Of a DNA stretch of 34,046 nucleotides, positions 3,434-27,566 are shown piece by piece (position 1 is the first letter of the stretch; the number at the start of each line of letters is the position of its first letter). A model generated the notes under the pieces. The model saw nothing but the letters and a program-made list of their open reading frames with translations, did not search any database and was not told where the DNA came from. Made by a program: the position numbers and the translations under genes. This stretch comes from a virus, in IMG/VR virus record IMGVR_UViG_3300032288_002406, positions 1-34,046 of that record, one strand, 5' to 3'.

Positions 3434-4417
3434 TTAGTAGCCTACGCTGATTAATGAATTATGGATATAATTAACACCCATTTTGAAACGAGCCTTGATA
3501 TAAACTTTCTCGTCTTTCTGGTCGTACCAAAGTTCCAATGCAGTTTCAGGACTTAATACGTCAGTTGCCAAAACCTTATTTAAAGGTGTTGTATATTCAA
3601 CGTAATGAGGCTTTGTAGTTCCTAAACTTGTTAGGATATCATCCCATCTCCATTGAGCAACAACTGGTACACCTCTAAAAGTGAATTGCTCAACTCCGTT
3701 AATCAACTGAAGTAAACCGTAATCTCCTCCGCCACCATCTTCGATGTCTTCCCTAAGTTGTGAATATACCGAACCAGTTACATTGAACACTTTTTGGTTT
3801 GCTGGTAAGCCTTTTAATTGTAATGGTGCTTGGTCATAGATTGCTCTAAGAATAGCAAAACCATCACCAGCCGCAAGGTCACTTCCTGAACCCGTATTTG
3901 TTCTTGGAATCAAGTCTTTAGCCACTAATTCAGGATAGTAAACAGTCCAAAAACCGTCTAATGAATCGTAATTAGGGTTATTAGAAGCCTGATTGCCAAA
4001 ATAAGACAAACGGGTAATGTCTTGACGAATTGCCTGTTGTGTTCTTTGCAACAAGATATTTTCAATCAATGTGCCTGATACATCTGGAAGCCTTGTACCA
4101 GTCTTCAACAACTCTTCAAAAACAGTATCTTCAAACTCATCCCAACACATTTCAAGGTCAACTTTCATTTTTTCTACGTCGATTGACCTTTCGTAAATGT
4201 CTGTCTTACCAACTGGAGTAAAGCCACAACCTGAATACTTTCTTACGATGTTTTCCAAAGCTGCAACAAAAACCATTTTCTTTTTATTCGCAACGTTTCC
4301 AAGTACACGGAATTGTGAACGTAAATCATCGTCAAAGAAAACTGGCTCTAAAAATATATTATTAGCTTCAGTACCCCTGAAAGCTACGTCTAATTGACTA
4401 AATTCAACTATTGCCAT
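3434..4417 (-). CDS. Major capsid protein (HK97-fold type)
   Basis: 327 residues, the usual size for an HK97-like capsid subunit without a long scaffold. The N-terminal region is extended, followed by a long helix region with LIENILLQRTQQAIRQDITRL (spine-helix-like) and a YFGNQASNNPNYDSLDGFW segment. The C-terminal portion, VPVVAQWRWDDI then ALELWYDQKDEKVYIKARF and KMGVNYIHNSLISVGY, matches the closing strands seen in Bacteroidota phage capsid proteins, where a Dbl-acidic loop precedes RAKFKLGVQYIHPELI-like endings. It sits two genes after the protease-scaffold fusion, which would process or scaffold it. There is no sign of truncation. This is one of the surer calls in the window. Confidence 0.85.
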   Translation of the reverse strand: MAIVEFSQLDVAFRGTEANNIFLEPVFFDDDLRSQFRVLGNVANKKKMVFVAALENIVRKYSGCGFTPVGKTDIYERSIDVEKMKVDLEMCWDEFEDTVFEELLKTGTRLPDVSGTLIENILLQRTQQAIRQDITRLSYFGNQASNNPNYDSLDGFWTVYYPELVAKDLIPRTNTGSGSDLAAGDGFAILRAIYDQAPLQLKGLPANQKVFNVTGSVYSQLREDIEDGGGGDYGLLQLINGVEQFTFRGVPVVAQWRWDDILTSLGTTKPHYVEYTTPLNKVLATDVLSPETALELWYDQKDEKVYIKARFKMGVNYIHNSLISVGY

Positions 4418-18748: not shown

Positions 18749-19055
18749 TTTCTTTTGTCTTTCCGTCTGTGAAAATAATCGTTGGAACGGTCACTTTTTC
18801 CCCTTGACTGGTTACGTCGATTTGTTGCTTTGATTTTCCGTAGGCACGGTCGAAAAGCAACTGAGCCGCTTTGATATCACCCTTTGCAGCTTTGCCCCTT
18901 AACATGTTTAAAATGGCTTGTGCTGCGGTTATACCGTCCTTTTCTTCGCCCATGACTTCAGCCATTAGCTTGTCTATTTCAGGTAGCTTTTTAGGGCGTC
19001 CGCCACCATTATTTCCACCATTTTTTAATTTTCCTCCATTTCTTCCTTCTCTCAT
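18741..19055 (-). CDS. terS: Terminase small subunit-like protein
   Basis: 104 residues directly upstream of terL with a short membrane protein gene between, overlapping the ABC-GNAT gene end by 4 nt. The N-terminal Gly/Asn-rich arm (GNNGGGRPKKLPEID) leads to a helical core (AVM GEEKDGITAAQAILNML, RGKAAKGDIKAAQLLFD, RAYGKSKQQIDV). The GRPKKLP arm and 'AA..LL.RaYGK' segment are typical of a small-terminase-like family found before terL in Bacteroidota phages. It would bind the packaging site and start DNA loading. It lacks a clear winged-helix motif, so the call rests on family likeness and position. Confidence 0.65.
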   Translation of the reverse strand: MREGRNGGKLKNGGNNGGGRPKKLPEIDKLMAEVMGEEKDGITAAQAILNMLRGKAAKGDIKAAQLLFDRAYGKSKQQIDVTSQGEKVTVPTIIFTDGKTKENG

Positions 19056-20125
19056 TTTACGAGGTTTTTACGAGGTTTTAATTCAAAAGATGCTGTAATT
19101 TTATTTGAAATTGTTTCTCCATATTTATTTTTATAACCTTTAATTCTTCCGTAATGATGGCAATTCCAGTCTTTTGATTTTTTTAATGAATGAATTAAAC
19201 TTGGTGAAGTTGTGTTTATTGTATAACGCCAATTATTATTTAAATATATTTTACCAATTTCATTTAACATTTTTAAACCTATTCCAATTCCTTGATAATC
19301 TGGAAATACAACCAATCTATGAACTCTTTTTTGATATTTCATGGCACTTGGTTGAGCAATAATACTAATAAATCCAGCTATTTCATCATTAATCATACAA
19401 ACAAAAACATTAGCAGCATCATTATGATTTGAATTTAAATAGTGGTACTTACTAAACATTTTCCATATTGATTTATCTGTTGTTTGAAATAATTCAAATT
19501 TAATATCAGGTCTTTTTTTTTTACCAGAATGTTTTATAAAAGTCATTGTATCGGTATTAAAAACCCAATCAGGCATTAACCATTCTTCTATATCAAAATG
19601 ACATGAAACAGCGATAAACTTTTTATCTGTTTTTCTGATTGCTTTCTGAGTGGCAAAAGAACCAATTTTTGCAATCTGTCTATCTACTACACTTGTAAAT
19701 TCATCAAATACAAATAATTCATTTTTTTGCAATATTGCATTGGCTAAATCTACCCTCATTTTCTCTCCATTACTCAAAACGTGATATGGTTTTAACCAAC
19801 TTGGGGGAGAACTAAAACCAACGCTATTAAAAGTATTTGTAATATCTTCGATGGAACAATCTTTAGGCATATCGTCCAATATGCTTTCGCTTTTATAATC
19901 AAAATTGGTAATATAACTTTCTGGAAATAACTGTTTTGCAATGGTTGTTTTTCCTGTTCCACTTTTACCAACTATTAATCCAATTTGCCAATCATCATCA
20001 ATATCAATACTACCTTTAAACCTTTCGGTTATATGGTTACTTTGTAAATCAAATCTTCCAATTACACTTGCAATGCGAAAAGATTTTTTAGGCTTGATTT
20101 CTTTTATAATGTCAAAAGTCGGCAT
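19052..20125 (-). CDS. ABC-type ATPase fused to a GNAT acetyltransferase-like domain (Mom-like candidate)
   Basis: 357 residues. The N-terminal half is an ABC ATPase without membrane part: Walker A VGKSGTGKTT (52-61), signature LSNGEKMRVDLA (about 117-128), Walker B LFVFDEFTSVVDR (about 138-150) and a switch histidine SCHF (about 175). The C-terminal half from about residue 205 is GNAT-like: KYHYLNSNHNDAANVFVCM, GFISIIAQPS, then the acetyl-CoA loop RLVVFPDYQGIGIGLKMLNE. GNAT-family Mom of phage Mu modifies adenine, and the 'HYL' start is reminiscent of it. It overlaps the ParB-like gene by 22 nt and the small terminase gene by 4 nt. Together these suggest DNA modification or packaging protection, which is inference. 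The locus is AT-richer than its neighbours. Confidence 0.75.
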   Translation of the reverse strand: MPTFDIIKEIKPKKSFRIASVIGRFDLQSNHITERFKGSIDIDDDWQIGLIVGKSGTGKTTIAKQLFPESYITNFDYKSESILDDMPKDCSIEDITNTFNSVGFSSPPSWLKPYHVLSNGEKMRVDLANAILQKNELFVFDEFTSVVDRQIAKIGSFATQKAIRKTDKKFIAVSCHFDIEEWLMPDWVFNTDTMTFIKHSGKKKRPDIKFELFQTTDKSIWKMFSKYHYLNSNHNDAANVFVCMINDEIAGFISIIAQPSAMKYQKRVHRLVVFPDYQGIGIGLKMLNEIGKIYLNNNWRYTINTTSPSLIHSLKKSKDWNCHHYGRIKGYKNKYGETISNKITASFELKPRKNLVK

Positions 20126-25277: not shown

Positions 25278-25285
25278 TATCTTTG
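25278..25285 (+). promoter_or_regulatory. Candidate -7 box for the plus-strand block
   Basis: TATCTTTG, in a TTATCTTTGTG context typical of Bacteroidota promoters. It precedes the tRNA-like stretch and the first plus-strand gene by 170 nt. The same core occurs again at 28315-28322. No clear TTG lies 17-23 nt before it. Confidence 0.45.
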
Positions 25286-25287
25286 TG

Positions 25288-25427
25288 TGCAAGGTGGCGG
25301 AAGTTAGACGCAATGTGAAATGAAAGTGGTTATTGCAAAGTTAAGGGAACGTGCAATGGACGCTGGAAAACATTTAAAAATATTACCTTAATAATATTTG
25401 CTGGTATCGAATCCAGCCCTTACTACT
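25288..25427 (+). other. tRNA-like (Leu-type) remnant or structured leader
   Basis: A D-arm-like GGTGGCGGAAGTTAGACGC at 25293-25311 closely resembles the D-arm of tRNA-Leu (GCG/CGC stem). A T-arm-like GCTGGTATCGAATCCAGC follows at 25400-25417, but its loop has 8 nt, not 7. A perfect 7-bp stem AAATATT...AATATTT (25378-25399) could be a long variable arm. The outer stem pairs only in part (AAGG with CCTT). No anticodon stem is visible and the insert is too long, so it is not a working tRNA by eye. It may be a decayed tRNA, an intron-bearing one, or a leader RNA. Confidence 0.3.
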
Positions 25428-25455: not shown

Positions 25456-25923
25456 ATGACAAAAGTAATAACAACAAAAAAAGGGTTTAGCTGCACTGTT
25501 GATGCGGAAGACTACGAATTGCTATCCAAGTATTCATGGCACGTTATTAACGGACTTTTTGCAACCAATATGCTGGTTAACGGCAAATACCAAACAAGGT
25601 ATATGCACCGTATGTTGACCAATGCGCCAAATGGTGACGTTGTAATTCATATTGATAAGAATATGAGCAACAATTGCAAAAGTAATCTAATGGTTATGAG
25701 TCGTTCTGATTCCAGAATTACCCATGCAACCTCAAAGCGAAATAAAACTGGTTATCGTGGTGTTTCGTATCGTCCCGAGATGTTTAAGTACACGGCTGTT
25801 ATCAAGAAGAAGGAAAAAATAACGTATCTCGGTTGCTTTGATTGTCCAAAAGAGGCAAGTAAAGCATACGAAACGGCACTGGCAGAAATTTATCCGCATT
25901 TAATTCATTTAAGGAAAGTTTAA
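25456..25923 (+). CDS. HNH-AP2-like homing endonuclease, possibly degenerate
   Basis: 155 residues. The N-terminal part (TTKKGFSCTVDAEDYELLSK and YSWHVINGLFATNMLV) and YMHRMLTNAPNGDVVIHIDK, followed by NMSNNCKSNLMVMSRSDSRI, follow the HNH-AP2 pattern, but the usual VDH(I/L)NG core reads VIHIDKN: the Asp before the key His is Ile. The C-terminal KTGYRGVSYRPEMFKYTAVI...YLGCFDCPKEASKAYETALA is a full AP2-type DNA-binding domain. It may be a poorly active endonuclease or a DNA binder only. It starts 170 nt after a TATCTTTG box and precedes a structured RNA. Free-standing homing genes like this spread among phages. Confidence 0.7.
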   Translation: MTKVITTKKGFSCTVDAEDYELLSKYSWHVINGLFATNMLVNGKYQTRYMHRMLTNAPNGDVVIHIDKNMSNNCKSNLMVMSRSDSRITHATSKRNKTGYRGVSYRPEMFKYTAVIKKKEKITYLGCFDCPKEASKAYETALAEIYPHLIHLRKV

Positions 25924-25934
25924 AAATAATTTTA

Positions 25935-25942
25935 TATATTTG
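25935..25942 (+). promoter_or_regulatory. Candidate -7 box for the structured RNA / second HNH gene
   Basis: TATATTTG followed by CA, a perfect TAnnTTTG, 8 nt before the first hairpin of the structured RNA. The transcript would start about 25949, at the base of hairpin 1. It lies just downstream of the first HNH gene stop (25923). Confidence 0.45.
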
Positions 25943-25950
25943 CATAAATT

Positions 25951-26050
25951 CTTTTGATTGGTGTGGTAGTCAATCAAAAGAAAAATGAGCAAATTATTTT
26001 TGTTCACATGAGCCAAATAGTCTACCACCTATTTTGGCTCTTTTTATTTT
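25951..26050 (+). ncRNA. Three-hairpin RNA with complementary loops, ending in a terminator
   Basis: Hairpin 1 (25951-25980) has a perfect 10-bp stem CTTTTGATTG/CAATCAAAAG. Hairpin 2 (25986-26006) pairs TGAGCAAA with TTTGTTCA with one G-T pair. Hairpin 3 (26010-26040) is an 11-bp GAGCCAAATAG/CTATTTTGGCTC stem with one bulge, followed by TTTTTATTTT. Loop 1 contains GTGGTAG (25963-25969), the exact complement of CTACCAC (26022-26028) filling the loop of hairpin 3, so a 7-bp kissing interaction is possible. A -7 box stands 8 nt upstream. It could be an independent small RNA or an attenuator for the gene at 26057, which starts 7 nt after the T-run. Confidence 0.65.
26010..26050 (+). terminator. 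Rho-independent terminator (hairpin 3 of the structured RNA)
   Basis: An 11-bp stem with GC-rich base (GAGCC/GGCTC), loop TCTACCAC, then a T-rich tract. It lies between the first and second HNH genes and ends 6 nt before the next ATG. Translation of the second gene would need read-through or another start. Confidence 0.65.
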
Positions 26051-26056
26051 ACAAAA

Positions 26057-26545
26057 ATGGCTAAAGAAATTCAGTTAACACAAGGCAAAGTTGCAATCGT
26101 AGACGATGAGGACTACGAGTATTTGAACCAATGGAAATGGTATGCATCTAAAGATAGATATAAATTTTATGCCGTAAGAAATATAACAATATCTAAAGGT
26201 AAACAAAAAAGTATATCAATGCATAGGTTAATTAGTAATAATATAAATACAAAAATGCATACCGACCATTTGAATGGAGATGGATTAGATAATAGAAAAA
26301 TAAATTTAAGAATATGTACTCATAGTCAAAATTTAATGAATAGTAAATTAAGAAAAGATAGTACCTCAGGGTTTAAAGGGGTTACTTATTGTAAAAGAAA
26401 TAATAAATATGCTTCTGTAATAAAATTAAATCAAAAATTAATTTGGTTAGGATATTTTATCGACCCCTTAGACGCCGCCCGTGCCTACAACGAAGCTGCC
26501 TTGAAATATCATGGAGAATTTGCTAACCTTAATAAAATAGACTAA
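26057..26545 (+). CDS. HNH-AP2 homing endonuclease
   Basis: 162 residues. The full HNH core is MHRLISNNINTKMHTDHLNG, DGLDNRKINLRICTHSQNLM, with the TDHLNG/DNR..NLR motifs intact, and the AP2 domain (TSGFKGVTYCKRNNKYASVI then WLGYFIDPLDAARAYNEAA) at the end. It is the better conserved partner of the gene at 25456, about 30-40 percent similar by eye. The middle is very AT-rich while the last 25 codons (from about 26460) are GC-richer, a sign of patchwork origin. Likely acts as a free-standing endonuclease cutting a related phage lacking the gene. The initiator-like gene begins 2 nt after its stop. Confidence 0.85.
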   Translation: MAKEIQLTQGKVAIVDDEDYEYLNQWKWYASKDRYKFYAVRNITISKGKQKSISMHRLISNNINTKMHTDHLNGDGLDNRKINLRICTHSQNLMNSKLRKDSTSGFKGVTYCKRNNKYASVIKLNQKLIWLGYFIDPLDAARAYNEAALKYHGEFANLNKID

Positions 26546-26546
26546 A

Positions 26547-27566
26547 ATGGATTTTTCATTTAACATAGAATTTGCAAAAAGATACGGAGTTGATGAAGCT
26601 ATAATGGTTAAATCATTTCAATTCTGGATTAGATTAAACAAAGCAAACAAAGTTAATTATCATGATAAAAGGTATTGGACTTACAATACAAATAAGTCGC
26701 TAAGTGAATATTATTCTTTCTGGACTGAAAAACAAGTTAGAAGAATTATTGAATCATTGGTAGATAAGGAAATTTTAATAAAAGGTAATTACAATAAAAT
26801 TGCATACGATAGAACTATTTGGTATGCTTTTATGAATGAAGATTTATATTTATCAGATAATTTTCATCTTGAGGAAAATGCAAATTACGAAAAGGTAAAT
26901 ACCATTTTACCAAATGGGCAAATGGAAATTACTAAAAAGTCAAATGGAATTTCACGAAAGGGCGAACCTATACCAGTTACTAACCAAATACTAAATACAT
27001 TTACTAACTCAAATATTAATATTAAAAATTCAGATGAATTTTTGGAAGATGAAATTGAAATAAAGCAAAATGACAAAGTAAACCCTTTTACCATTGTTGC
27101 TAATTTGCAAAGTCAAAAAGAAAAAGAAAAAACTTCGGGTAAAAAAGAAAAAGAAAGCCGAGCCGAGCCGAAACCCGAGCGGAAGCCCAACCCGACGTAC
27201 GAAGCCTTTACAGTGTTCTGTCAAACGTTTGAACAGTTATCTGGTGCAGCATATCCTACCGACCAGAACGGAAATTACATTATGAGCCCCAAAGATGCTG
27301 GAGGCATGGTATACCTGTTGCGATGGCTTGAAAAAGTTGACAGAAATGGCAATACGATTGAAGCATTAAAAGTATTTTTACAAGCAGCTTGGTCATTGCC
27401 TGATAAATGGTTAAAAGCCAATTTTACACCAACCATTTTATACGGAAGGACAAATCAAATTTATACGGCTTACCAAACGTCATCACCAGCGGCAAAGAAA
27501 AAGGCGTATGACGATGAAGTTGACAGATTATTAGCAGAAGCAATGAAGAAATATCAAACACAATAA
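26547..27566 (+). CDS. Replication initiator / replisome-organiser-like protein
   Basis: 339 residues. The N-terminal winged-helix-like region (FSFNIEFAKRYGVDEAIMVK, FWIRLNKANKVNYHDKRYWT then YNTNKSLSEYYSFWTEKQVR) and IKGNYNKIAYDRTIWYAFMN are typical of phage DnaD/replication protein O-type starts. A long low-complexity linker follows (KEKEKTSGKKEKESRAEPKP), with a GC-rich patch near 27150-27210. The last third, with AFTVFCQTFEQLSGAAYPTD and LQAAWSLPDKWLKANFTPTI, is a DnaD-like helical part that probably binds the helicase loader or DNA. It may open the phage origin and load the host helicase. It follows the HNH gene by 2 nt. Confidence 0.7.
   Translation: MDFSFNIEFAKRYGVDEAIMVKSFQFWIRLNKANKVNYHDKRYWTYNTNKSLSEYYSFWTEKQVRRIIESLVDKEILIKGNYNKIAYDRTIWYAFMNEDLYLSDNFHLEENANYEKVNTILPNGQMEITKKSNGISRKGEPIPVTNQILNTFTNSNINIKNSDEFLEDEIEIKQNDKVNPFTIVANLQSQKEKEKTSGKKEKESRAEPKPERKPNPTYEAFTVFCQTFEQLSGAAYPTDQNGNYIMSPKDAGGMVYLLRWLEKVDRNGNTIEALKVFLQAAWSLPDKWLKANFTPTILYGRTNQIYTAYQTSSPAAKKKAYDDEVDRLLAEAMKKYQTQ

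Follow-up and report, generated by a model that had tools for sequence, protein, structure and literature searches.

A structured phage RNA with self-matching kissing loops and its possible role as an attenuator leader

The RNA and its locus

The window analyzed here, an IMG/VR virus record of 34,046 bases taken at its full length, contains two HNH-AP2 ORFs (25456-25923 and 26057-26545) that flank the RNA described below (Table 1). The HNH-AP2 protein is of the homing-endonuclease type. The minimum free energy (MFE) fold of 25951-26050 consists of three hairpins, with a predicted energy of -30.2 kcal/mol against -15.05 +/- 2.94 for shuffled sequences (z = -5.15; 0/200 shuffles as good). Hairpin 1 has a stem of 11 bp, or of 13 bp once the outer TT/AA pairs from 25949 are counted; the stems of hairpins 2 and 3 measure 8 bp and 11 bp, the latter interrupted by a single bulge, and the sequence TTTTTATTTT follows directly after hairpin 3. 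GTGGTAG and CTACCAC, which lie entirely within loops 1 and 3, are exact reverse complements of one another. An earlier note, made from the letters of this DNA, had placed here three hairpins with a 7-bp loop-loop match and a terminator, a -7 box directly upstream, and an HNH-AP2 gene on either side, and each of these was found where it had been said to lie. The note had also judged the fold too regular to be chance, a view that agrees with the shuffles and with the 81/81 homologues in which an unbroken run of at least 6 Watson-Crick pairs between the two loops is retained. Judged from sequence, then, the feature is a structured phage RNA of about 95 bases, located upstream of DNA-replication and DNA-modifying genes.

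Table 1. Features of the RNA and its surroundings in the window
Feature	Position	Strand	Evidence
-7 promoter element TATATTTG (Bacteroidota TAHHTTTG)	25936-25943	+	Box upstream of 81/81 distinct homologues
Predicted transcription start, foot of hairpin 1	25948	+	Expected from homologue box spacing and PMC6847099
Hairpin 1, 13 bp with the outer pairs counted	25949-25982	+	Fold; both-sided changes in 10/12 model pairs
Loop-1 code GTGGTAG, partner of loop 3	25963-25969	+	7/7 kissing pairs covary; complementary in 81/81 and 16/16 homologues
Hairpin 2, 8 bp	25986-26006	+	Fold; 92.7% of cells paired (81 homologues)
Hairpin 3, putative terminator stem	26010-26040	+	Fold; both-sided changes in 10/10 pairs; GU:AC 62:0
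Loop-3 anticode CTACCAC	26022-26028	+	Loop match kept in homologues; covariation
T-run of putative intrinsic terminator	26041-26050	+	6-8 T in 8 nt, 81/81 homologues
Downstream gene, HNH-AP2 protein	26057-26545	+	Pfam HNH_3 and AP2, both under the curated cut-off
Replication initiation protein, behind the downstream HNH-AP2 gene	26547-27566		PHROG

Upstream of the first HNH-AP2 gene, at 25284-25423, is a tRNA-like stretch (GTGCAAGGTGGCGG...GACGC, then ...GCTGGTATCGAATCCAGCCC) with a -7 box of its own. No tRNA was called in the window, where pairing between the 3' and 5' ends of the stretch has been lost; in 5/13 related loci scanned (L088, L096, L113, L119 and L436), ARAGORN did report a tRNA-Tyr, tRNA-Leu or tRNA-??? 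that precedes the RNA. The stretch is possibly a fast-changing tRNA-like RNA that heads the early operon. The first HNH-AP2 gene lies between this element and the promoter of the RNA, and since the two are adjacent in relatives such as L007 and L015, that gene looks inserted. Elsewhere in the window, the protein encoded by the minus-strand gene at 19052-20125 combines a partial match to ABC/AAA ATPases with a GNAT acetyltransferase domain behind it, and the gene clusters with glycosyltransferase and DegT aminotransferase genes of the phage.

Homologues and covariation

Homologous loci were collected from IMG/VR by way of the HNH-AP2 protein, the replication protein behind it, a ParB-methyltransferase and another replication protein, with pattern scans in addition. 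The first 41 RNAs were chosen by the loop match itself, so that their perfect pairing is circular. A covariance model was therefore built from these 41 without the loop-loop pairs, and a renewed search with it gave 160 copies comprising 81 distinct sequences, about half of which (40) lie outside the first 41 and were not preselected by the match. The same holds for 16 more distinct RNAs from a later search, mainly via a replication protein; all 16 were loop-matched, and they added one new loop code. In total, IMG/VR gave 97 distinct copies, and in every one of them loops 1 and 3 match over 6-10 contiguous Watson-Crick pairs.

In the alignment of the 81 homologues (A2), 95.4% of cells pair, and both-sided changes occur in 577 cells versus 151 in shuffles. 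The covariation score for A2 is 0.609, compared with 0.212 +/- 0.007 for shuffled sequences and 0.10 or less for slid-partner controls. Homologues whose stem or loop pairs fail to covary would, by the earlier note, have counted against it; both-sided changes were found in all seven kissing pairs, and the three stems covary too. The few unpaired or wobble cells among the kissing pairs come from three rows that are apparently out of register in the model alignment, and in the unaligned sequences the loop match is present in all 81. Within the stems, G-U exceeds A-C by 191 to 48, and in hairpin 3 by 62 to 0, from which it follows that the structure acts as RNA of the plus strand.

Rfam 15, searched with the window at the gathering score, gave no family match, its endonuclease-associated RNAs included, and permissive filters yielded only chance-level matches to eukaryotic and unrelated families. 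BLAST against isolated phages, with the HNH-RNA region and one homologous RNA as queries, found no RNA homologue, and no copy was present in the stretches searched of two Bacteroidota phage isolates whose replication proteins are related. None was found in 395 Bacteroidota genomes and 8 more, for which the filters were strict and a positive control was lacking, nor by covariance-model search of most loci among the matches listed from a pattern scan of genome contigs. Judging by the type of promoter and by distant relatives of their proteins, the phages that carry the RNA probably have Bacteroidota as hosts.

Promoter, terminator and downstream genes

All 81 distinct homologues are preceded by a TANNTTT(G/A) box, with G never found at either N position, and its distance to the loop-1 code is 16-20 nt in 80/81. 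In Flavobacterium johnsoniae, the G that ends the -7 box stands at -5 (PMC6847099), and transcription in the window is therefore expected to start at 25948, at the foot of hairpin 1. At the other end of the RNA, an ORF start codon follows 11-30 nt (mode 15-17) past the beginning of the T-run in 159/160 located copies; within the stretch examined, L274:4639-4734 was the sole copy with no long ORF found behind it. The segment between hairpins 1 and 3 varies little (24-31 nt).

Two kinds of accessory element were sought around the RNA. No leader peptide is conserved, internal ATG ORFs of at least 5 codons being present in 9/81 homologues, and a ribosome-mediated attenuator was rejected on this ground. 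There is also no antisense promoter: antisense -7 boxes occur within 150 nt in 2/81 homologues versus 6.6 expected by shuffle, a comparison that concerns the promoter only. A different leader was observed before an HNH-AP2 gene in L023 (about 3880-4000). It has a -7 box, long-range pairs and a hairpin that resembles a terminator (ATCCCATATC...GATATGGG, with a T-run), and is possibly another attenuator family.

The genes behind the RNA are diverse. ParB/DNA-methyltransferase genes are the commonest, followed by HNH-AP2 genes and replication initiators of several PHROG families; others include a gene for an HNH-helicase protein. Many phages have two copies of the RNA, ahead of two units and with differing codes. 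Given that the downstream genes are unrelated, the RNA is a reusable plug-in leader and not a guide RNA specific to HNH genes. The earlier note had offered both kinds of function, a regulatory RNA or attenuator on the one hand and a guide-like partner of the adjacent endonuclease on the other. The first is favored by the promoter, the terminator hairpin and the start-codon spacing seen in 159/160 copies. For the second, it can be said that an HNH-AP2 gene adjoins the window's RNA and about 28 other copies of it, but these about 29 of 159 fall well short of the constant association with a nuclease gene expected of an HNH-associated guide RNA (HEARO/OMEGA), as most copies precede other genes. 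Nor does any Rfam match point that way, and the loci contain no third partner site for the code (0.24 per locus versus 0.22 in the control). A guide-like RNA of the neighboring HNH-AP2 endonuclease is accordingly an extremely improbable reading.

A probable attenuator leader

Promoter, terminator hairpin with T-run, and then the start codon of a gene is the layout of an attenuator that works by intrinsic termination, and the loci have it. Because almost all copies have the terminator after the promoter and ahead of the start codon, attenuation is the most economical reading. We think it probable, with some reserve, that the RNA is a 5' leader by which the transcription of early phage genes is attenuated, its 5' hairpin docking onto the loop of its own terminator.

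Under attenuation, a promoter of the host type would start transcription at the foot of hairpin 1, and hairpins 1 and 2 would form. Hairpin 3 and the T-run would stop many of the transcripts, so that a compact RNA of about 95 nt would be the default product, while the remaining transcripts would read through into an mRNA with its start codon about 16 nt downstream. The loop of hairpin 1 would pair, most likely in cis, with the loop of the terminator hairpin; this pairing would couple the 5' end to terminator formation and thereby set the level of read-through. Kissing presumably favors termination, and the stem of hairpin 1, which is conserved in sequence, or hairpin 2 may be the target of a modulator.

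Two considerations weigh against this reading. By rough geometry, cis kissing with all three stems in place is borderline, with a span of 58-81 Å versus a linker reach of about 68-80 Å, itself a rough length estimate that assumes the usual 6-8 unpaired bases. In this model, the borderline reach leaves room for strain as part of the switch, or for pairing between molecules. Moreover, the T-run could be a weak terminator.

Conservation of sequence in hairpin 1 raises a further alternative. Across all 81 RNAs, two U-A pairs of this stem are invariant and its lower part is conserved in sequence, unlike hairpin 3, a pattern that suggests contact with a protein or with the polymerase. Together with the position of a 5' hairpin at the predicted start, it would also suit a stable structural leader that protects the mRNA, or a protein-binding RNA, in which the loop-loop helix would give a compact, nuclease-resistant molecule with no regulatory termination. 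Such a role is doubtful, however, as a T-rich terminator stands ahead of the gene in every copy and would be superfluous for protection.

The loop code and possible recognition between molecules

The loop heptamers amount to 21 codes among 81 distinct RNAs and 22 among 97. Their duplex energies have a standard deviation of 0.97 kcal/mol versus 2.54 for random heptamers, as if the pairing strength of the codes were tuned, and 15/21 codes contain 4 G+C. Closely related RNAs can differ in little else: L096 and L484 differ by a single compensated pair and at 0/83 other positions, and between L113 and L100 the code has changed with compensation, along with 1/81 other positions. General hypervariability of the code was considered and rejected, being absent from the average over all RNAs, with code-only changes seen just in single close pairs.

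A code of this kind could serve recognition in trans. The terminated RNA would then pair by its loops with a nascent leader of the same code, as a double kissing dimer, and would shut off or tune the unit, much as CI RNA does in the immunity of satellite phage P4, or as happens in plasmid copy control. Early replication genes might in this way be placed under homotypic immunity or copy control. Codes would diversify from phage to phage, and also between the two units that one phage carries, and this diversity would keep co-resident units or phages from regulating one another. The number of codes (22), the two copies per genome that always differ (12 distinct combinations), and the code switches with almost nothing else changed are all in keeping with this, and leader-encoded RNAs that act on their own operon are known from IsrK and the P4 CI RNA (PMC4825925). 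On the other hand, chance alone would give differing codes within a genome (probability of no coincidence 0.66, in a test without power), and within samples shared codes are not avoided, at 1 versus 1.8 expected (P 0.46, likewise without power). On average over all RNA pairs, the code is no quicker to change than the remaining positions, and pairing in cis requires fewer assumptions. Self-recognition in trans is thus possible, although we consider it unlikely in each of these forms.

Pairing between molecules could also build oligomers like those of the phi29 packaging RNA, each molecule inserting its loop 1 into loop 3 of its neighbor. The self-complementary loops that vary between phages while pairing energy is kept do resemble those of the pRNA (PMC5340915). 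But the context here is one of replication genes instead of packaging genes, there is no Rfam match, and many genomes have two copies with different codes, all of which makes oligomer formation very unlikely.

Comparison with known RNA regulators

As an attenuator, the leader has its closest counterparts in the CI RNA of P4 and the IsrK RNA of Salmonella Gifsy-1 (PMC4825925). These too are short leader-encoded RNAs ahead of phage genes, in which termination versus read-through decides expression and parts of the same leader pair with one another; in P4, replication genes are likewise under control. Their pairing, however, is not described as a loop code between a 5' hairpin and a terminator hairpin, and the CI RNA is produced by processing (PMC4825925). 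The phage leader has no Rfam relation to CI RNA, and the window gave no match to the P4 CI or C4-type immunity RNA family in Rfam 15.

The antisense attenuators of the pT181 type (PMC4878617) offer a second comparison. In these, too, the leader ends in an intrinsic terminator, and kissing between loops both initiates the interaction and determines its specificity; loop swaps give orthogonal variants, and plasmid replication is controlled. They require an antisense transcript, whereas the phage leader has its partner loop in the same RNA and no antisense promoter.

The phi29-type pRNA (PMC5340915) shares mutually complementary interlocking loops, the letters of which vary between phages as total pairing energy is kept, but it differs in fold, gene context and presumably function. 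Neither the sequence and structure of that family nor a packaging context was found for the phage leader, which has no Rfam match, and membership was rejected.

Endonuclease-associated RNAs of the HEARO or OMEGA type are RNAs that adjoin an HNH gene. The phage leader differs in that it is not bound to an HNH gene and matches no such family.

Significance for phage biology

Attenuators and kissing loops, the parts of this RNA, are of known kinds. Their combination here, in which a variable, self-matching code locks the terminator loop to the hairpin at the 5' end, was not found described, and the literature searched, which included few subscription papers, held no description of the RNA family. 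What emerges is a well-supported family of phage RNAs that has no Rfam match. Its variable yet always self-matching loops, with 22 codes of similar pairing energy, resemble natural orthogonal RNA parts. Should the loops act in trans, they would amount to an RNA-based system of self/non-self recognition between phages; if instead they set termination, the leader would be a compact, RNA-only switch for early phage genes.
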